Source: Methanobrevibacter smithii ATCC 35061 (lineage in GTDB: Archaea; Methanobacteriota; Methanobacteria; Methanobacteriales; Methanobacteriaceae). Taken from it: DNA of 64,000 nucleotides. Under the pieces are notes generated by a model. It had not been told where the DNA came from, searched no databases, and was given only the letters and a program-made list of their open reading frames with translations. The stretch is from the NCBI RefSeq assembly GCF_000016525.1, contig NC_009515.1:186001-250000 (forward strand), in the 5' to 3' direction. The position numbers and the translations under genes are program-made. Shown in pieces: positions 7,349-59,325 of the stretch. How positions within the stretch are numbered: position 1 is the stretch's first letter; every line of letters starts with the position of its first letter.

Positions 7349-9139
7349 TTATTCAAAAAGACCAAAACTTCCCCAATCAGAATCCTGCTTACGTTTAATT
7401 TCCAAAAACTCATATAAGGTTTCAAATTCATCTTCAGTCAATTTATCCTTAAATTCCCTTTCAATGTATTTGTAATGTTTTTCAGGAATATCAACATATA
7501 ACTCGTCTCCCTCTTCAAAGTCTTTTCCAACTATAGCATCTTTAATAGCCATAGCTACCCTTTGACCTCTGGAAATATCAGGTAATGTTTCACCCTTATC
7601 TTCCATACTAGCTATTGAACCAACAACATGCCCATCTTTATTAATCAATTGTTGACCTTGTTTAAGAGTTCCGCTTAAAGATTCAATACCGATAATAGCA
7701 GGTTTACTTTGACGGAACACTAATTTTGGAAGTGAAACAAATTTTGCAGGTTTAATTATAGCATCATAAAATGACTTTTTCTTATCTTCTTGCTTTTGCT
7801 TGACCCATTCCTCATACTCTTCAAGAATCTGATAAATTACATCTCCTGAAAAGAGCTTGACTTCAGAATTATTAAGATCTTCTTCAGAATTTGGATGAAC
7901 ATCCACATTAAAAGCAATAATTGCTCCGTGAAGTTCATTTTCATCATAAGCAATTGAAGAATTAATAATATCCCTACGATTTACATCACCGATATCAGCT
8001 GCACGAATTGGAATATCCATTTCCCTTAATAGCTTAACAACAGCTTCCAGTGAACCAATAGTATCTGCTTTAACTAAAATACCTTCATCTTCTGTATCAA
8101 TAGTAATGTTGTCAATTTCATTTAAAATCTCCTGTTCAACATCAGTATCTTCACTTAAAACTCTAAGAGGAGAACCTGAAACAACATCATCTAAATGAGG
8201 TGCAGCTACTTTAATACCTGCCGCTGCAACAACTTCATCTAATTTTCTAAATTTCTTTTTAGAATCCCTCATTTCCTCAAGAGGAAGAGGTCTTAAAATA
8301 GATCTAATTTTAGTTACCAATACATCTTCTGAAGATAACATTAAAGCTATTTCATCATTGGTTCTTAAAACACCATCATAAATAATAGCATCAAGAGTAA
8401 CTCCCAAACCAGTTTCTTCCTTAATTTCTAAAACTGTACCTTTAGCTGGAGCATTTTCATCGATTTCAAGTTGTTCAGTTAAATATTCTTGAGCAAGCCC
8501 TAAAAGCATAGCTAAAACTTCTATAACTCCTTCACCAGTTTTAGCACTAATCGGAATAATACTAATCTGGGAAGCAAAATTGCTTACTCTGTCAAATCTT
8601 TCAGACTGGAATCCTTCCTTGTGAAGTTCACCGACAATTTCATAAATCTTATTGTCCAAATCCTGCTGAACACTTTTAGCCTGATTGGAAAATGTTTCCC
8701 TAAAAGAGGCACCTTCATGAACTTCCCAACCAAAAAGCCTATCGATTTTATTAGCTACAACAATAAATGGAGTTTTATACATTTTAAGAATGTTTAATGC
8801 TTCATAAGTCTGTGGCTTAAATCCGTCATTAACATCTAAAATCAATACAGCCAAATCAGCTAATGCACCACCACGTTTTCTTAAACTAGTAAATGCGGCA
8901 TGTCCAGGAGTATCAATGAAAAACAAACCAGGAATTAAATCTTTAATAGCTAATTTGGATATGAAATCTCCACAGATATTTTCAATGGTATCATTAGGAA
9001 TCTCAGTAGCACCAATATGCTGAGTAATACCTCCAGCTTCCTTAGCTGCAATAGTACTTCCTCTAATATAATCCAATAAAGTGGTCTTACCGTGGTCTAC
9101 ATGTCCTAAAACTGATACAATTGGGGATCTGATTTTCAT
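7349..9139 (-). CDS. infB: translation initiation factor aIF5B
   Basis: aIF5B promotes ribosomal subunit joining. The G1 motif GHVDHGKTT is at residues 12-20 and DTPGHAAF near 76-83; four domains follow in the 596-residue chain, the archaeal size without the long eukaryotic N-terminal extension. The C-terminal acidic helix region that contacts aIF1A is present. There is no intein. It follows ndk by 17 bases in the L7Ae operon. Confidence 0.98.
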
Positions 9140-9156
9140 GTTATCTTAAATAATAA

Positions 9157-9609
9157 TTATTCGTAAATTAATTTGTTATCAACGATTTCGTAATCGCAAA
9201 TTTCATCTTCATTAAAGAATAAATTGATTTCTCTTTCTGCAGAATCTGGAGAGTCAGAAGCATGAATAATGTTTCTACCAGTGTCCATAGCAAAATCTCC
9301 TCTAATAGTTCCGAGGTCTGCTTCTAAAGGATTGGTTGCTCCAACTAATTTTCTGATAGTACTGATAGCTTCTTCTCCTTCAATTACCATAGCAAGAGAT
9401 GGGGAAGATGTAATGTATTCAATTAAACTACCGAAAAATGGTTTATCTGCATGTTCTCCATAATGAGTTTTTGCTAAATCTTCATCAATTTGCATTAACT
9501 TTACAGCAACGATTTGAAGACCTTTTTCTTCAAAACGGGATAATATTTTACCCATAAGACGTCTTTGAACTGCGTCCGGTTTCATCATTACAAAACTTTT
9601 TTGAATCAT
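9157..9609 (-). CDS. ndk: nucleoside diphosphate kinase
   Basis: Balances NTP pools by phosphate transfer through a histidine. The active-site [16 protein letters not shown] is near residues 113-128 with His about 115, and the N-terminal [10 protein letters not shown] is typical. 150 residues. Its ATG overlaps the TGA of rpl24e (ATGA at 9609-9606), so the two are translationally coupled. Confidence 0.98.
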
Positions 9610-9767
9610 TCTTTAACCCATTTAACTTTTCTTGGAACTCTACCAAGTTTAATCATGTTTTTTTCACATTTACTGCTACAAAAGAAATAAATAGAACCGT
9701 CTTTTTTAACATACATTTTTCCGGTACCTTCTTCTATTTCTTTATTACAGAATGAACAAGTCCTCAT
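9606..9767 (-). CDS. rpl24e: 50S ribosomal protein L24e
   Basis: A 53-residue ORF beginning [20 protein letters not shown], with paired CSFC and CSSKC motifs forming the L24e zinc finger and a basic C-terminus. Length and sequence match archaeal L24e. It lies between rps28e and ndk, the conserved order. AGGTGT precedes the start. Confidence 0.95.
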
Positions 9768-9781
9768 GTTCTTACACCTTC

Positions 9782-9988
9782 TTAAGGAGTTTTAATTTCC
9801 TTAGCTTCTCTAATAGTATCAAGTAACATTAAAATGTCCCCTTCTCTTACAGGACCCATAATGTTTCTTGTTAAAATTCTTCCTTTGTCTCTACCATCGA
9901 GGATTCTGCATTTAATTTGCATAACCTCTCCAGTCATACCAGTTCTTTTTAAAACATTAATGACTTCAGCAGGAGTAGCTTCTTCCAT
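9782..9988 (-). CDS. rps28e: 30S ribosomal protein S28e
   Basis: Short S1-like OB-fold ribosomal protein; the core [20 protein letters not shown] and the [13 protein letters not shown] stretch are diagnostic. I place the start at the ATG of MEEATPAEV (9988). A GTG three codons earlier is part of the ribosome binding site AGGTGAT and is not used as a start. 68 residues. Confidence 0.95.
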
Positions 9989-10020
9989 ATAAATCACCTT
10001 TTAATCCTCAAAAAGAAGAT

Positions 10021-10392
10021 TTATTCTTTTAATTCTGCGATTTTTTCAACAATTTCAGCTACGTCGCCTTCAGCATCTCCAGCGTCAACAATACAAGCGG
10101 ATGCGGTACCGACAGTTAAACCTGCAGCTCCACCAACTTGTTCTTTAGTAGGTAAGTAAATGTAAGGAATTTCTTTTTCATCAGCGAGAACAGGGATGTG
10201 TGCAACAATTTCAGCAGGATCAACATCTTCTGCGATAACAACAAGTGCTGCGTCTCCTCTTTCGATAAATTTAGTTACTTCGTTAGTTCCTTTTGCTACT
10301 TTACCACTGTCTTGTGCGGTTTTTAATGCTTCTTCAGCTTGATTAGCTAATTCTTCAGGTGTATCAAATTTTACATAAATTGCTTTTGCCAT
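10021..10392 (-). CDS. rpl7ae: 50S ribosomal protein L7Ae
   Basis: Kink-turn-binding protein of the large subunit, also part of box C/D and H/ACA RNPs and archaeal RNase P. The core TNEVTKFIERGDAALVVIAEDVDP carries the RNA-binding residues. The start MAKAIYVKF at 10392 has an excellent GGAGGT 8 bases upstream; a longer frame to 10413 is spurious. First gene of the operon; its leader has a hairpin that looks like a K-turn (10411-10429), which fits autoregulation. Confidence 0.97.
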   Translation of the reverse strand: MAKAIYVKFDTPEELANQAEEALKTAQDSGKVAKGTNEVTKFIERGDAALVVIAEDVDPAEIVAHIPVLADEKEIPYIYLPTKEQVGGAAGLTVGTASACIVDAGDAEGDVAEIVEKIAELKE

Positions 10393-10410
10393 AATATATA
10401 CCTCCTTTTT

Positions 10411-10429
10411 CATCTGGCTATGCCATCCA
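10411..10429 (-). promoter_or_regulatory. K-turn-like hairpin in the L7Ae mRNA leader
   Basis: Read on the minus strand: GA, then stem TGGC, loop ATA, stem GCCA, then GA. Two GA dinucleotides flanking a short stem on both strands is the tandem sheared G-A arrangement of a kink-turn non-canonical stem, and a 3-base bulge ATG precedes the first GA. The canonical stem below is weak (G-T and C-G only). It ends about 10 bases from the GGAGGT of rpl7ae. L7Ae binding there would block translation. Structure seen; binding inferred. Confidence 0.45.
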
Positions 10430-10466
10430 TCGGCAGATATTATAATTCCTTGAATTATAATATTCG

Positions 10467-10490
10467 TAATTATATATAGTTATATTATTT
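10467..10490 (-). promoter_or_regulatory. TATA region of the L7Ae operon
   Basis: AACTATATATAATTAC on the minus strand, about 80 bases before the rpl7ae ATG, is the best TATA box. A transcript from it would start near 10445 and contain a 10-bp inverted repeat (ATTATAATTC / GAATTATAAT, about 10439-10461) and the K-turn-like hairpin. Confidence 0.5.
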
Positions 10491-10897
10491 TAACTATAGA
10501 AATTACTCAAATTATTCAATGAGCGAATAATTTTATAGTTTTTAATAATACTAATTCTTGAATACATTCATATATCACTAAATATAATCCCATTAAATAA
10601 AAAAAAGAGGGATTAAACTTTCAATACAAATACTTCTGAATTTCATATAATTTTTAGCAAAACTAAAAATAAAAATTTAGTAATTAATGAAATAATTCTA
10701 GAGAACTAGACAGTATTAAGTATGTTTTTATTACATATAAATGTTTTCCATACTTTTTCCTAAAAATAAGTTTACTAAGTTAATAATAGTAAGTTATACT
10801 TTTTAATACTTTTGAAAAAAGCTAATCATAAAGCTGTCAAATACTGCAATTTCAGATTTTAAAAATTTTTAATTTAATTTTCACAGACATAAGATAA
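10491..10897. other. AT-rich gap between divergent operons
   Basis: No ORF or RNA gene recognised. A 9-bp inverted repeat AAATTATTC / GAATAATTT with a 7-base loop sits at 10509-10533, framed by AACTATA and TATAGTT. AATCCC / GGGATT arms enclose an A-rich loop near 10585-10613. Both may be operator or terminator relics; neither is assigned. Confidence 0.4.
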
Positions 10898-52414: not shown

Positions 52415-52702
52415 ATGTCACAAAAAGATGACGAACTTTTGAAATTAACTTCATATGTTGAAATTTCAAAGTACAGAGAAAAAACCTTAAAATCTATTGG
52501 AAATAATGTTAAAATACCAACAAATATTGCAAAAGACAGTGGTATTAGAACAAACCATATTTCTAAAGTTTTAAGTGAACTTAAGAGTAAAGAAATTGTA
52601 GAATGTATAAATGAAGAAGCTAGAAAAGGAAGATTGTACAGATTAACTGATACAGGTAAAGAAGTATTGGAATCTATAAATGAAAAAGAGGAAGAAAACT
52701 GA
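52415..52702 (+). CDS. winged-helix transcriptional regulator
   Basis: 95 residues. Helix-turn-helix IPTNIAKDSGIRTNHISKVLSELKSKEIV and wing EARKGRLYRLTDTGKEVLE are clear; a Lys/Glu tail follows. A TATA box (CATTTTATATTATG, about 52382-52395) is only 20-30 bases before the ATG and there is no ribosome binding site, so the mRNA is probably leaderless. Target unknown. An insertion sequence follows directly. Confidence 0.85.
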   Translation: MSQKDDELLKLTSYVEISKYREKTLKSIGNNVKIPTNIAKDSGIRTNHISKVLSELKSKEIVECINEEARKGRLYRLTDTGKEVLESINEKEEEN

Positions 52703-52749
52703 AACTGCACTTTTCATACTTCCTTTAACAATTACATTTTTCTTTTATT

Positions 52750-54130
52750 GAGTCTGTAAAATTTTATAGGCTTATTTGATTTTAATGTGTTTTTCAGTCC
52801 AATTTTGCATTTGATAGTCTAAAAATGTCAGGATTCCATTTTTGGTTTTGTATATTTTCTTTATTTTTTCAGGATTGGTTTGTCTGTAGTAATTTTCGAC
52901 TTTATTTGATGTTTTTTCTATATTTTCATCATCAAGATATTCTACGTATCTGTGGAAGTGATTTATGATATGTTTTCTTATGAAATCTTTTAAAACAACT
53001 GGTATGGCCGTATATTTTTGTAAATATTGTTTAAATTGTTCTATTGCTTCTTTTTTTGAGTTTTGTCTGAAACAGTTTTTTAATTCTTGTGCATTTTCGT
53101 AAATATGGTCTCTTTGTTTTCCATTAATCTTGTTTCTTCTACAATATACTTTTAATTTATGGTTTATTGTTTGAAACAGATGAAATATGCACAATTGATG
53201 TTTTACTTCTATTTCATCTGCTACATTACGATACATTGGGAATAAATCGGTTGTTAGGCAAATGAATGGTTTATTTTCTGTTGATTCTAAGATAAATTTT
53301 TTCGTGTTTTTTGGTATTCTGCGACGTACTATTCGTTCTGTGACTGGAATATTGAGTATTGCATCAAATAAAGTTAATCTGTAGTGTCTAGTTCCATTAA
53401 GTCTTAAAAATTGCTCATCATATAAATAATAGCCAGAATATTCAAATTTTTCATTGCTGATGCTTTCTTCGTGATTTTTGTCAGACCAGTTCTTGATTGT
53501 TTGATGAGATATTCTGATTCCAAGGAATATTTCAAAGTATTTACTTATTTTACGAAGTGATTGGTACCCTATTTTCATTATTCCTGGAATTTTATCCATT
53601 ATTTCTTGTAAAAATTGTTTATTTTCACCAATTAATGGATTATTGTATATTCCGAATTTTTTTCCACATTTTTTGCATTGATATTGCTGTTCTTTGAATT
53701 CTGTTGTTTTTCCATTAGTATTTTGTTTGTTTTTCTTTATTGTGCCTTTTTTGATTATTTTGTGGCTTCCACAAACTGGACAAATGGGATTATCATATTT
53801 AAAAGTATTATTTTCATCTAAAAATAGTTTATGATTAGTATTTTCAAAATTAGGTGTTTTATTCAATCTTTTTGAAATAATTTTTTCTTGATCAATTTTT
53901 TCATCAAAAAAATCATAAAGTTTAAGTTGTATGAAGTCTATATTACTATTGAGGGCAGATTTGTTTTGTTTGGTCATAAAATATTATTTGTCCTCACTTA
54001 TTAAAGTATTTTACTATTTTTAAATCATTTATATTAAAATTAAAGAAAAATTAGAATGAAATTTCATCAAAATGAAAGTTCAACTGTAAAAAATTAAAAA
54101 ACAAATAAGCCTATAAAATTTTACAGACTC
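52750..54130 (-). mobile_element. second ISM1-like insertion sequence, 1381 bp
   Basis: Perfect 29-bp terminal inverted repeats (52750-52778 and 54102-54130) starting GAGTCTGTAAAATTTTATAG. One intact transposase gene, its stop inside the left repeat as in the element at 32663. No matching 8-bp target duplication is visible: the left flank is CTTTTATT and the right one AAAAAAAT. So the element may be older, or its flanks were rearranged. Confidence 0.88.
52772..53977 (-). CDS. transposase
   Basis: 401 residues. Zinc-binding CPVCG (about 68-72) and CKKCG (about 102-106) in the N-terminal part; catalytic region with SGYYLYDEQFLRLNG, LTLFDAILNIPV, TTDLFPMYRNVA and EVKHQLCIFH. Same family as the transposase at 32670 but clearly diverged, so the two elements are separate arrivals, not copies of one another. 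Confidence 0.92.
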   Translation of the reverse strand: MTKQNKSALNSNIDFIQLKLYDFFDEKIDQEKIISKRLNKTPNFENTNHKLFLDENNTFKYDNPICPVCGSHKIIKKGTIKKNKQNTNGKTTEFKEQQYQCKKCGKKFGIYNNPLIGENKQFLQEIMDKIPGIMKIGYQSLRKISKYFEIFLGIRISHQTIKNWSDKNHEESISNEKFEYSGYYLYDEQFLRLNGTRHYRLTLFDAILNIPVTERIVRRRIPKNTKKFILESTENKPFICLTTDLFPMYRNVADEIEVKHQLCIFHLFQTINHKLKVYCRRNKINGKQRDHIYENAQELKNCFRQNSKKEAIEQFKQYLQKYTAIPVVLKDFIRKHIINHFHRYVEYLDDENIEKTSNKVENYYRQTNPEKIKKIYKTKNGILTFLDYQMQNWTEKHIKIK

Positions 54131-54142
54131 AAAAAAATTAAT

Positions 54143-55117
54143 TTAAACCCTGTTTTTAATACCTTCTTTTAAAAATTCCAAATTTTCACGATTATTAACA
54201 TCTGAAGCTTCATCAAAGCTATCAAATAAATAATTAAATATAATCTGATTTTTAACATCCGTTTTCACAGAGTCCATAGACTCGTAACCTATAGAATTAT
54301 AATCCGGATTTTTTAAATCTTTTTTATATTGCAGTTTAATAGCTTCCCTTAAATCATGATCAATATAATCTTCCAGCTGACCAATTATCTCTCCGGCAAA
54401 AGTATTGCCCAGCACCATCAAAACCCCAATTTTTTCATCATCAAAAGTTGTTTCTTCAAGCAAACTTTCAAAAGAAGCATAACGCTGATATCCATGAGGA
54501 ATAAACCTTCCTTCAACAGTATGAGCACAATATTCATTCATTAAAGCCAAATCATTAGACAAACAATACCAGACAAAACCTTCTAATGTAGAAGACTGCT
54601 TTACTTGAAACACATCACAAAGCAAACTTTCAATTATGTCAAACAATAAAAAATGAGTCAATTCATGAATAATAGTAGCTATCTGAACTGAATCATCCAA
54701 ACGGTCATCATAATACAAAACATGCCCAAATTCAAATCCGAATTCTTCACCTCTGGCCTTTGGCCTGCATTCAGCAAATACTCCTGCTATACTTAATATT
54801 TTTTCTTTAGGAGTATGACCTGCAATTTTTGAAAATTTTAATTTCCTAAAAATATTTGACAATAATTTACTATAATCTTCATCAGAAATTTCAGCTTTGG
54901 CCAGCAATAATTTATTATAATCAGTAAACAGCTTTTCAAAGCTATCAATAGAGACAGGACGAATTTGTTTATTGCAATTGCTGCAATAGCTACTGTCATC
55001 TGAATTTAATTCCCCGCAAAATGGACAGATATTATCCATAGCTATTCTATTTCCGCAGTGAGTGCAGTAATTATTTGCTCTAAGATTAGGAGTTCCACAT
55101 ACATCACATTCTTTCAT
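54143..55117 (-). CDS. zinc-ribbon protein with HExxH metallopeptidase-like domain
   Basis: 324 residues. Two zinc ribbons come first (CDVCG...CTHCG and CPFCG...CSNCN, residues 4-52). The main domain holds IIHELTHFLLFD near residue 150, a zincin HExxH, and NEYCAHTVEG downstream with a possible third ligand. It is followed by a helical C-terminus. No signal peptide, so it acts in the cytosol. It is the last gene of a run starting with the RecJ-like protein. Substrate unknown. A zinc-dependent protease recruited by its ribbons is the simplest reading. Confidence 0.72.
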   Translation of the reverse strand: MKECDVCGTPNLRANNYCTHCGNRIAMDNICPFCGELNSDDSSYCSNCNKQIRPVSIDSFEKLFTDYNKLLLAKAEISDEDYSKLLSNIFRKLKFSKIAGHTPKEKILSIAGVFAECRPKARGEEFGFEFGHVLYYDDRLDDSVQIATIIHELTHFLLFDIIESLLCDVFQVKQSSTLEGFVWYCLSNDLALMNEYCAHTVEGRFIPHGYQRYASFESLLEETTFDDEKIGVLMVLGNTFAGEIIGQLEDYIDHDLREAIKLQYKKDLKNPDYNSIGYESMDSVKTDVKNQIIFNYLFDSFDEASDVNNRENLEFLKEGIKNRV

Positions 55118-55126
55118 AACTACACC

Positions 55127-56032
55127 TTATCTGAAAACATTTCTTATAGATCTTCCGGCATTTGACAATTTAATTTTACGATTCATGGCTTTTTTAATGT
55201 TTTTACCACAATTAGGGCAAAATTCAACATCATAATCTACAATTTTTCCACAACTACAAACCAATTTGGATTTAACAAAACGTTTTGGATTCAATTGTCT
55301 GTCACAGCTGCTGCAAAATTTTGCAGATATGGGATTTTTAGTTCCGCAAACACAAATTAAAGCTTTATTTTCATTTTTTAAATCAATTCCACAGTCAACA
55401 CAGAAATCAGCAGTAACATCATTTAATGTAGAACAAAAACATAATTTTTGAATATTTCCATCAGTTTTTTCAAAATTATCTAACGGAAATCCGCAATTAC
55501 TGCAAAACTGACTGAATTCATCATTTTCCTGTCCGCAAAAACAAAAAATAGGATAATCACATTCAAACTCAAAATTACTGTAAAGATCTTTTAATGGAGT
55601 CTCTTCATCTTCAACTAATTTCTTTCCACACATTTCACAAAACAAGTTTTCTTTAGAATTAACATGCCCGCATTCACAGCTAACGGTTGTAAATGAAAAT
55701 GTAGGTTTTGGTTGGGATTTGAAAATTCTTCTTAATTTACTGTGTGTTCTTTTAACACCGCAATGATAACAGTAGTCATTTTCTTTTAAATTCAGATATC
55801 CGCAGGAACAGACTTCATATTTCAAATCTTTTCTGGTGCTTTCAATATAAGGTGAAAAGTCTATATCCAAATCAAAAAATCCGATGTCGTAAATTGGAAG
55901 CGTAAACATATAATCATCACCAGCATCTACAAAAGCTGTTCTAGCTCCACAGCCTTTACAGTACTCTTCATTAAGTGATAATCTTTTGCCGCAATTGCCA
56001 CAGTAGTTTTGTAAAACCATATGCATCATCAT
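55127..56032 (-). CDS. seven-zinc-ribbon protein
   Basis: 301 residues built of seven zinc ribbons (starting near 11, 75, 118, 163, 197, 229 and 260), most with a shortened C-x-C first knuckle (CSCG, CECG, CFCG) and a normal CxxCG second one. A basic tail follows (KKAMNRKIKLSNAGRSIRNVFR). No other domain. It probably serves as a scaffold for proteins or RNA. ATG 56032 overlaps the TGA of the gene before; an internal ATG at 56020 is possible. 10 bases before the HExxH gene. Confidence 0.75.
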   Translation of the reverse strand: MMMHMVLQNYCGNCGKRLSLNEEYCKGCGARTAFVDAGDDYMFTLPIYDIGFFDLDIDFSPYIESTRKDLKYEVCSCGYLNLKENDYCYHCGVKRTHSKLRRIFKSQPKPTFSFTTVSCECGHVNSKENLFCEMCGKKLVEDEETPLKDLYSNFEFECDYPIFCFCGQENDEFSQFCSNCGFPLDNFEKTDGNIQKLCFCSTLNDVTADFCVDCGIDLKNENKALICVCGTKNPISAKFCSSCDRQLNPKRFVKSKLVCSCGKIVDYDVEFCPNCGKNIKKAMNRKIKLSNAGRSIRNVFR

Positions 56033-56538
56033 TTAGTCAAGTAAAGATAAATTCTTCTTAAAATCCATCCTATAATCCCTGTAGGAATTACGAATATTCC
56101 TGCTATAACTATACTTGCACAAATCAACAGCAAAATCGCAACAACAGGATTAACCGCAAATTCACTTGAAAAAAATTCAGAATCTACAAATAAGGAAATA
56201 TAAACAGAAACTGCAAAAAAGAAAGCAGCTTCCATTGCTAAAATTACTCTTAATTTGCTAATCCTGTATTTATTTTTTCTCTCATCAAATATATGAAACA
56301 ATTTGAATTTAAAAGTTGGTTTAGTATGCCCATTATCTTTAAAATGTGATTCATTAAATGTATTATTAACCTTTTTCTTTTGTGAAATTTCACTTGTTTC
56401 TTTTGAATGCATGGAATTCATAATTGAATTATGTTTTTTAATTGTATTAATGTCCATGTCAACAAAAGAATTGCCACATTTTACACAAAATTTGGCATAA
56501 TTAGCATTTTCAAAACCGCATTTAGGACAATATTTCAT
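56029..56538 (-). CDS. zinc ribbon / two-helix membrane protein
   Basis: About 169 residues: a zinc ribbon (CPKCG near 4-8, CVKCG near 18-22), a polar linker, and two C-terminal helices (about 100-120 and 130-155) that place the ribbon at the membrane. ATG 56538 comes one base after the RecJ-like stop; GTGA in that gene's end serves as binding site. Coupled with both neighbours. Confidence 0.72.
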   Translation of the reverse strand: MKYCPKCGFENANYAKFCVKCGNSFVDMDINTIKKHNSIMNSMHSKETSEISQKKKVNNTFNESHFKDNGHTKPTFKFKLFHIFDERKNKYRISKLRVILAMEAAFFFAVSVYISLFVDSEFFSSEFAVNPVVAILLLICASIVIAGIFVIPTGIIGWILRRIYLYLTK

Positions 56539-56539
56539 T

Positions 56540-58798
56540 TTAAAGTTCACTCATATTTCTTATTTCATTAACAAATTCACTTAAAACTTCTTCCCCTAAA
56601 CCTTCAATGTATTTTATAGATCCGGCACATTCATGGCCTCCGCCGTCAATACCTGCTGAAGGTATCATTTCAGCCAGTTTAGGAACAATATTATTGACGC
56701 TAAATCCAAATCTTTCATTAACAGCATCAGTAGCTCTTATTACACCAAAATCAGGACCATGTCCTAAAGTTATAATTGGTTTATCCTCACCTAATGCCTG
56801 AACTACACTATCATGAACAAAACCACAGGTTTTTCCAGGAGCAGGGAATGTAAATTTATGAGCATATTTTTCAACATCAATCATATTGAAGTAAATGCCA
56901 TTCTCAAAATGAGTTTTTTCAATATTAGGAATAGCTGCTTTAAGCTGAGTGTCAACACGTTTTAAATATTCCTTGTATAAAGAATCAATCATCTTTTCAT
57001 GCTTATCAATATTGTCAACAGCTAAAATAGTGTCCATAATTCCCCTACCATTCATGAACCTAAGGAAATAAGCTTCAAAGTCAACACATTCGGCTATTTT
57101 AGCTAAATGTTCTTTAGTAAATCCTTTTTCTGCTGCCAATTCAAGGTATTGGTAAACTTCACCACATTCAGCATGATCTCCCAAAGCTGCAATAGCCGGA
57201 AGATGTTTGATTAAATCTTTAATTTCAGGATTTATAATATGTGCCACTTCAGTAGCCAGTGCTCCTGCAGTTAGCTGAGAATCTCCTCCAACCAGATAAG
57301 GGTTTACATGAGTGTCAACATATTCATCAACAGCAACAGTTCCGCCAACAATTTCCCCGTCTTTTTCCTCTTTAGTAATTAAATCTCCAGGAGAGTGATG
57401 GTCTATTACTACAACTTCCACATCATAAATTTTAGCCTGCATCAAAGCTACAATGTCCTCTTCTGTAGAACCATTATCCAGCAAAACAATTAACGGCAAT
57501 TTTTGACCGTGTCTTTCCTTGTCTTCAAGAGCAAAGGACAAATCCTTAACTACATCTTCCAATTCATAAAATGGAGCTTTACTTGGAGATCTTTTGAAAT
57601 AATAATACTGAGCATCATTACTTGGATTTACCTGTTCGACAAGAGGAACAATAGCTTTTTCCATAGCTACTCCTGAACAGATACCGTCTGCATCGTTATG
57701 ATGTCTTAATAAAATAGATCTGCCATCTAAAATAGCTCTCCTAATTTTTTGAGCTGCTTCCCTCATTTTAGGTTTCAATCTGTTTAAAACATCACTTTTA
57801 ACCAGGAAATCAACATCATCAGGTTCTGCCCTTTTATTTAATGCATCTTCAATTAAATCATGAAGTTTGGCTTTTTTCTCACCTTCCAATTTGGAAATAG
57901 ACTGAGATTCAATTTGAGGCTTGCCTCCATGCTGATTAACTTCACCTAAAACTTCCACAGCATCCCCAACATCAATATCTGGATATGCTCTAACTCCAGC
58001 TTCATCAAAAGCAGCTACCCATGTAATATTTGATTCATCAGTAATTGTAAAAATAGTCGGTCCTGAAGTTTGCTGAACCTGTAGAACTTCACCGTCAACA
58101 CGAACCAATTTGCCCATTTTTTCTTCCAGATCAGAAATAATGGTTCTTGGAATGCTTTTTGTCTGTTTTACAATATTGTAATTTTTAACATATGCTGGAG
58201 CCAAATCAATTTTTCTTTCCCTTGATTTAATAGCTGTTATAAATACAATAACATCATCTCCAACTTTATAATTAGAGATATCTCCCCTCATAAGTCCCCA
58301 GACATTATTATTTAATGTTACAAAAGCACCATATTTTTCAACACGGGTAACTCTGCCTTTATAAAGTCTATCCTTGTCCATATCCCTCATTTGACATAAT
58401 GAATCCAAGACATAAACATCTTTAACTTCGTTTTCCATCTCCCGTATTTTATCACGTTTCATTCTATCTTCCTTCCTTTTGGTATGGCAATCTCTACATA
58501 AATCATATTTTTCACTGATTGGTTTGCCGCAGTCATTACATACATTAATCTGACCGCTGCCATGACAATTAGGACATTCTTCAAAAACTTCAATCTGACC
58601 TTTTCCATGACAAACTTCACATGGAATATCCTGATCTGCCCCTAAATCAAATTTAGCTTTCGCATTACTATTAACTCCTTTAAAATGATTTCCTACATCA
58701 AAGGAATCTTGGTAACCAGTTCCGCCACAGCTATCACAGTCTTTATAATCTACAACTACAGAACCTGTTCCTCTACATTTTGGACACTTTTTTTTCAA
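56540..58798 (-). CDS. archaeal RecJ-like DHH phosphoesterase with DnaJ zinc finger, S1 and OB domains
   Basis: 752 residues. The N-terminus (about 1-105) holds DnaJ-type CxxCxGxG repeats (CPKCRGTG, CDSCGGTG, CEVCHGKG, CPNCHGSG). An S1 domain follows (about 140-205), an OB-fold nucleic-acid binding domain (about 215-310), and the DHH core with LLRHHNDADGICSGVA and VVVIDHHSPGD, then GGGHECAGS of DHHA1. This is the COG1107 group of archaeal RecJ-like exonucleases. It is a putative single-strand DNA or RNA 5' exonuclease. First gene of the zinc-ribbon run. Confidence 0.93.
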   Translation of the reverse strand: MKKKCPKCRGTGSVVVDYKDCDSCGGTGYQDSFDVGNHFKGVNSNAKAKFDLGADQDIPCEVCHGKGQIEVFEECPNCHGSGQINVCNDCGKPISEKYDLCRDCHTKRKEDRMKRDKIREMENEVKDVYVLDSLCQMRDMDKDRLYKGRVTRVEKYGAFVTLNNNVWGLMRGDISNYKVGDDVIVFITAIKSRERKIDLAPAYVKNYNIVKQTKSIPRTIISDLEEKMGKLVRVDGEVLQVQQTSGPTIFTITDESNITWVAAFDEAGVRAYPDIDVGDAVEVLGEVNQHGGKPQIESQSISKLEGEKKAKLHDLIEDALNKRAEPDDVDFLVKSDVLNRLKPKMREAAQKIRRAILDGRSILLRHHNDADGICSGVAMEKAIVPLVEQVNPSNDAQYYYFKRSPSKAPFYELEDVVKDLSFALEDKERHGQKLPLIVLLDNGSTEEDIVALMQAKIYDVEVVVIDHHSPGDLITKEEKDGEIVGGTVAVDEYVDTHVNPYLVGGDSQLTAGALATEVAHIINPEIKDLIKHLPAIAALGDHAECGEVYQYLELAAEKGFTKEHLAKIAECVDFEAYFLRFMNGRGIMDTILAVDNIDKHEKMIDSLYKEYLKRVDTQLKAAIPNIEKTHFENGIYFNMIDVEKYAHKFTFPAPGKTCGFVHDSVVQALGEDKPIITLGHGPDFGVIRATDAVNERFGFSVNNIVPKLAEMIPSAGIDGGGHECAGSIKYIEGLGEEVLSEFVNEIRNMSEL

Positions 58799-58827: not shown

Positions 58828-59325
58828 TTATCTAAATAAATTTGGATTATCATTAACTAACTTATTTCTTGCATTTTGATACTGAATAGCTTCATCCATT
58901 AAGCTATTTGCCTTATTACCATAACTACTTCCAGTAGAATTATCATTATTTTTAAAATAATAAATAGCATGAACCAAATTAGATGCAGCATCCTGTTTTA
59001 ATTCCACTTCATCAATAGCAGTAGCTAAGTATTCTTTATGAACTTCATTAAAATTATAACTACCATTCTGTATATCTGACAAATCTCTGGAACTTTTATT
59101 AAAATCATCACTTGCATAAAGTGCTTTTTCTAATGCTTCATCATAATTTTTATTATTTATTAAATTTACAGCATCATTATACTCTTTATCACCATTAGAT
59201 ATATTATCGCTAATTTCAGCCATTGAATTATCAAGAGAATTCATAGAAAATCCAACATAGACAATAGCTATAGCTATTATAACTAAAAGAAAAATAAAAA
59301 CTAATGCTCTCTTATAGTCTGACAC
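58828..59325 (-). CDS. membrane-anchored helical protein of unknown function
   Basis: 165 residues: one N-terminal helix (about 7-27), then an outside or cytosolic helical domain rich in Asn and Asp with a repeated-helix look (NNKNYDEALEKALYASDDF). No family recognised. It is 29 bases upstream of the RecJ-like gene and in the same direction. Confidence 0.65.
   Translation of the reverse strand: MSDYKRALVFIFLLVIIAIAIVYVGFSMNSLDNSMAEISDNISNGDKEYNDAVNLINNKNYDEALEKALYASDDFNKSSRDLSDIQNGSYNFNEVHKEYLATAIDEVELKQDAASNLVHAIYYFKNNDNSTGSSYGNKANSLMDEAIQYQNARNKLVNDNPNLFR

Follow-up and report, generated by a model that had tools for sequence, protein, structure and literature searches.

In the dominant human gut methanogen Methanobrevibacter smithii, the gene for the Hef-associated nuclease (HAN) precedes those for a protein that contains seven zinc ribbons and for a zincin, a predicted zinc protease with an HExxH motif, which carries two ribbons of its own. 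These genes lie in the window, the whole stretch of 64,000 nucleotides (nt) that was analyzed (G000:C1:186001-250000), to which all coordinates below refer unless a locus label is given. The association of HAN with this new zincin family is real, genus-wide, and undescribed in the literature searched, and it can be regarded as moderately novel. Little is known about how archaea remove proteins that are stuck to DNA, and the literature searched connects no protease with the HAN/Hef pathway of fork repair; the nuclease-ribbon-zincin operon is a concrete and testable candidate. Tentatively, and with a chance that falls somewhat short of even, HAN has gained a dedicated proteolytic partner, a ribbon-guided zincin that would clear DNA-bound protein at stalled forks.

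The association is observed across the 67 genomes of the genus that were compared, which would correspond to the smithii group (Methanocatella by some); labels with G and L denote genomes and loci of the comparison set, where G000 is the M. smithii of the window and G041 a sister genome. In 63 of the 67, the genes for HAN, the seven-ribbon protein, and the zincin are direct neighbors that share one strand and one order, at an identity of about 50-57%. The zincin is present in 66 of these genomes and the seven-ribbon protein in 64, the latter in this genus only. Generally, the gap between the HAN and seven-ribbon matches is short, 2-62 nt in 60 of the 63 genomes; in G000, G041, and G105 it is 416-510 nt, and a gene for a ribbon protein with two transmembrane segments (2TM) lies inside it. 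Two of the four exceptions (G093 and G065) are contig ends, and in the other two (G063 and G100) HAN is found without the pair behind it. In other genera, the genes downstream of HAN are unrelated and no ribbon/zincin pair is seen. Since the pair follows HAN only in this genus, it appears to have joined HAN in the genus ancestor. The recurrence of this gene order, like the cysteine conservation of the ribbons described below, is far beyond chance. All four genes are under purifying selection relative to the sister genome, with ratios of nonsynonymous to synonymous substitution rates (NG86) of ~0.04 for HAN, 0.23 for the 2TM gene, 0.09 for the seven-ribbon gene, and 0.14 for the zincin gene. 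In addition, the zincins of the operon group together in one clade (100/99); nearly every genome of the genus carries just one HAN-linked copy, which is inherited vertically.

A first-pass annotation, made from the sequence alone, had proposed a coupled unit of four genes. The four open reading frames are indeed present on the minus strand at the positions it gave, with gaps of 1 and 9 nt and one overlap of 4 nt. Its idea of one conserved unit holds for HAN, the seven-ribbon gene, and the zincin gene, whose fixed order also contradicts a random placement of the ribbon genes, the outcome that the annotation had named as its refutation. It does not extend to the 2TM gene, which occupies this place in only 3 of the 67 genomes and is thus peripheral to the unit. 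For the same reason, the proposal that a ribbon scaffold brings the protease and the nuclease to the membrane was rejected.

The RecJ-like protein (56540..58798, minus strand) is HAN, a known housekeeping gene of the whole order. It matches the family NF053577 of NCBIfam with an E-value of 5.5e-214 over residues 128-748, at 712 bits, which is below the curated cut-off of 840, and the solved protein PDB 5yh1 with an E-value of 1.8e-143. Its DnaJ-type zinc fingers, with CxxCxGxG repeats, are followed by S1, OB, and DHH/DHHA1 domains, and the motifs DADG (369), DHH (466), and GGGH (719) are in place. This is the architecture expected of HAN, for which a DnaJ-like zinc finger and two OB folds are published features (PMC5717133). 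Consequently, the combination of a DHH exonuclease with DnaJ-type fingers, initially thought to be without precedent, is that of a described enzyme. HAN is a 3'-5' single-strand exonuclease that acts together with Hef where replication forks stall. It is stimulated by Hef and also degrades RNA, starting at the 3' end (PMC5717133). The M. smithii genome itself encodes a Hef-like ERCC4 protein. Of 151 genomes of the order, 145 encode HAN, and every one of the 19 genera is represented. This distribution, set beside the restriction of the seven-ribbon protein to one genus, bears out the earlier suspicion that the nuclease is housekeeping and its neighbors a later addition. The M. smithii protein shares its domain architecture with HAN of T. 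kodakarensis (NF053577, 5yh1) and differs from described HAN in the ribbon/zincin pair downstream, which is not reported for HAN in the literature searched. In Methanosphaera-like genomes (g12; L051, L057, and L064), HAN lacks the N-terminal region that holds the DnaJ-type zinc finger, and matches begin at residue 111-128.

The zincin (54143..55117, minus strand) begins with a pair of zinc ribbons at residues 4-21 and 31-48 (54974..55108), which match Zn_Ribbon_1 with an E-value of 9e-8 and DZR with an E-value of 1.6e-6. The active-site motif HELTH is found at residues 151-155 (54653..54667), on a helix that spans residues 142-170 of the model. An alignment of 24 diverse members shows no variation at G127, H151, E152, L153, H155, E195, A198, or one isoleucine. 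E195 (54533..54535), within NEYCAH, is the predicted third metal ligand that the first-pass annotation had asked for. In two degenerate paralogues, the equivalents of H151, E152, H155, and E195 are all lost together, and this tie between the loss of E195 and that of HExxH is the signature of a third metal ligand.

The zincin fold expected by the same annotation is borne out at the level of profiles and not at that of structures. AlphaFold models are confident, with predicted local distance difference test scores of 87 and 91, but mostly helical. In Foldseek searches with full-length and domain-only models, no match was found below an E-value of 0.001, and only chance helical matches were returned; PprI, present in both result lists, was the sole metalloprotease noticed among the top matches, with nonsignificant probabilities of 0.35 and 0.25. 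Sequence and profile searches of solved structures with the zincin returned nothing useful. By contrast, a profile-profile comparison by hhalign with genuine M78 proteins from the genomes under comparison gave a probability of 91 and an E-value of 9e-7 over an alignment that covers the strands and the HExxH helix. Among the 24 members, weak Pfam matches were seen to DUF6782 (PF20573) in 20 and to Peptidase_M78 (PF06114) in 17, and SprT-like matches in only two (E-value 0.025). The zincin of the window scores 15.7 bits against Peptidase_M78, under the cut-off of 22, and three operon orthologues exceed that cut-off with 22.3-25.3 bits. As the window protein is below the cut-off and has no significant fold match, it is treated as a divergent M78-related zincin and not filed as M78. 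It resembles Peptidase_M78/IrrE-PprI/ImmA and DUF6782 in the beta strands that precede the HExxH helix and in a third ligand of the ExxA type. Nevertheless, it differs from M78 in several respects: the third ligand is 40 residues past HExxH on a later helix, most members are under the cut-off, the protein is mostly helical with no significant structural match, and ribbons or other domains replace the HTH and GAF-like domains. Judging from sequence, the HExxH protein appears to be gluzincin-like and to belong to an undescribed family with a distant relationship to M78/IrrE.

The seven-ribbon protein (55127..56032, minus strand) has exactly seven ribbons, at residues 11-28, 75-91, 119-135, 164-180, 198-214, 227-243, and 259-275. 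The unusual C-x-C knuckles noted at first sight are present in six of them; the first knuckle of ribbon 1 is C-x-x-C, and in one orthologue (L038) two first knuckles have this form. Across 45 orthologues, each of the 28 cysteines of the ribbons is conserved to 98% or more, whereas the other columns average 68%; C158, the only cysteine outside the ribbons, lacks such conservation. Between ribbons 1 and 2, the stretch P-x3-I-G-F-F-x3-I-D-F-S-P (residues 46-61; P46, I50-G51-F52-F53, and I57-D58-F59-S60-P61) is nearly invariant and represents a candidate partner-binding site. Zn_Ribbon_1 and DZR (PF13240 and PF12773) match the ribbons of the seven-ribbon, zincin, and 2TM proteins; what sets the seven-ribbon protein apart from these families is its seven tandem copies, the six C-x-C first knuckles, and the private IGFF...IDFSP motif.

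The conserved order of HAN, seven-ribbon, and zincin genes suggests that HAN has a protease as its partner, one whose targets are proteins bound to damaged DNA. SPRTN and Wss1 are DNA-dependent metalloproteases that carry zinc modules and clear DNA-bound protein, and the mode proposed here may be alike in outline, as a DNA-targeted zincin with zinc modules. The M. smithii zincin is not a sequence member of these families. In the proposed mechanism, the ancestor of smithii-type methanogens would have acquired, for its HAN, an M78/IrrE-like gluzincin with two ribbons and a seven-ribbon adaptor. The adaptor and the ribbons of the zincin would keep the protease attached to HAN, or to the single-stranded DNA or RNA that HAN exposes. 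H151, H155, and E195 would bind the metal and E152 would activate water; the zincin might then cut proteins bound or crosslinked to the exposed DNA, allowing HAN to trim past the block. An analogy is offered by PprI, an M78-type protease that is activated by single-stranded DNA (PMC10904395), the substrate on which HAN acts with Hef (PMC5717133). Linkage, active-site residues, ribbon conservation, and kinship were computed, and it is beyond these that we infer the physical complex, its targeting to DNA, and its substrates. Several observations weigh against a proteolytic partner of HAN: the complex, the binding to DNA, and the proteolysis are all putative; HAN functions in every other genus with no such partners, and the pair is missing beside it in at least two genomes of the genus (G063 and G100); Foldseek retrieved no significant match for the zincin; and one group of paralogues is found with TPR/Hsp70 genes and not with DNA genes. 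By a plain tally, most of the other contexts of the family are linked to DNA, unlike that group, and this counts in favor of the proposal.

One alternative is that the pair shares the promoter of HAN and has an unrelated function, since HAN is complete without it elsewhere and a complex between them is hypothetical. However, the order is maintained in 63 of the 67 genomes with short gaps at an identity of about 50-57%, and the two genes were apparently lost together in G063 and G100, so this explanation is considered unlikely.

The main rival is damage signaling of the IrrE/PprI kind, a PprI-DdrO-like switch in which the zincin, triggered by single-stranded DNA or by zinc released from the ribbons, would cleave the winged-helix protein encoded at 52415..52702 (plus strand; HTH_45, E-value 7e-7) and thereby derepress genes. 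The M78/IrrE kinship of the zincin fits such a switch, and the ribbons could be sensors of zinc or redox state; zinc signaling is reported to activate IrrE (PMC7907104). Moreover, an orthologue of the winged-helix protein (82-100% identity) lies tail-to-tail with the zincin in 64 of the 67 genomes. Yet tail-to-tail genes are not co-transcribed, the winged-helix gene is kept in G063 in the absence of the zincin, and it is conserved at an identity far above that of the zincin and may simply belong to the downstream RNase P/exosome region. On balance, the winged-helix protein is a possible substrate or just a neighbor, and the chance of a signaling role is slim. This protein has up to 13 paralogues per genome and stands beside the zincin wherever the zincin occupies this locus.

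Slimmer still is the prospect that the pair serves RNA or protein quality control, handling stalled ribonucleoprotein complexes near an exosome/proteasome/RNase P cluster. It draws on the RNA cleavage by HAN from the 3' end (PMC5717133), on loci of the genus that run on into genes for RNase P, proteasome alpha, SBDS, and the exosome (named by sequence reading), and on the paralogue group with Hsp70 and TPR. Nevertheless, HAN is not beside this cluster in the loci shown for other genera, the M. smithii operon is not contiguous with it, and most paralogue contexts are linked to DNA. Finally, a role in defense, with the zincin as an effector released on phage infection in the manner of its HsdR-fused paralogues, is very improbable. 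In its favor are the paralogues fused to type I restriction-like HsdR beside HsdS, and to MrcB_N. Against it, the HAN-linked copy is stably located and vertically inherited, PADLOC returned no match for the four proteins, and no relatives of the zincin were found in phages, viral contigs, or plasmids; the defense module first suggested is not supported for this locus.

Beyond the operon, the zincin family is a common thread among repair, restriction, and chaperone genes of one archaeal family. Profile searches detected the domain in 89 of the 152 genomes compared from the phylum; these belong to five of the 20 genera, all of them Methanobacteriaceae. No copy was detected in the 372 genomes searched from two other archaeal phyla, and the phage, plasmid, and viral-contig searches were likewise negative. 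The gene contexts track the clades, with 9 changes against 38 when shuffled. Overall, this family of the Methanobacteriaceae may have been mixed with HAN, HsdR/HsdS, MrcB_N, SAP-ribbon proteins, and an XPD-like helicase, and in the smithii group may form, together with HAN and the seven-ribbon adaptor, a nuclease-protease complex for the repair of protein-blocked replication forks, an independent counterpart of SPRTN; this broader proposal is rather doubtful.

The other contexts are diverse. In one, the zincin is the C-terminus of a protein of 1166-1167 amino acids (aa) with HSDR_N, SWI2/SNF2 helicase, and zinc-ribbon parts, and an HsdS-like gene follows 5 nt later (L043:4598-8101 and 8107-10209; L128:8720-12220); from its sequence, this pair may be a type I restriction-like system that includes a protease. 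Fusions of MrcB_N and zincin of ~480-530 aa are seen in L070 (6548-8146 and 17073-18518), L134 (7570-9087), and L135 (7376-8857); three are confirmed by Pfam and others share their clade, to which L132 and L133 also belong. Stand-alone zincin paralogues are tail-to-tail with, or overlap, genes for mutually homologous zinc-ribbon proteins, several of which contain a SAP domain (L034:6159-7475; L036:5878-7017; L046:1929-3725; L047:6123-7715; L049:7963-9399; L050:8125-9489; L052:1928-3715; L066:6418-7602 and 8668-10563; L067:6359-7777; L071:5079-6464). Elsewhere, the zincin gene is clustered with genes for SseB proteins and for an XPD/DinG-like helicase. A five-gene cluster is kept between genera (L053:6805-12939; also L068, L103-L105, and L129-L131) and encodes p251, an Hsp70-like protein (830-851 aa), a calcineurin-like phosphoesterase, a ~115-aa protein, and a TPR-zincin. 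For the ~850-aa form of the zincin, the N-terminal part of an 849-aa paralogue gave no match. Paralogues that have lost every catalytic residue (HExxH and E195) are intact beside an active copy (L066:10556-11554; L052:3712-5439) and are possibly pseudoenzyme partners.

As for the remaining features of the locus, a fifth co-directional gene, missed by the first-pass annotation, encodes up165 (58828..59325, minus strand), a protein of 165 aa with one N-terminal transmembrane or lipoprotein-like segment. It lies 29 nt upstream of HAN and is probably the first gene of the unit. Its position before HAN in most genera inspected makes this link order-wide and marks up165 as the older of the HAN partners. 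The HAN gene starts at a TTG behind a GAGGT site. The 2TM gene (56029..56538, minus strand), a lineage-specific extra with orthologues at the same place only in G041 and G105, fits better with an ATG start at 56538, 1 nt past the HAN stop, than with a GTG at 56550, and with this start it does not overlap HAN. It is overlapped by 4 nt (ATGA) by the seven-ribbon gene, and the zincin gene begins 9 nt past the latter. A scan for promoters of the sigma-70 type, a model that does not fit archaea, and for terminators gave little or no excess over shuffles. Between the zincin and winged-helix genes, 6 nt past the zincin stop, lies an insertion sequence (52743..54137) with an IS66/ISH6-like transposase of 401 aa and 50-nt inverted ends that are 88% complementary; it is absent from the sister genome and is not part of the unit.

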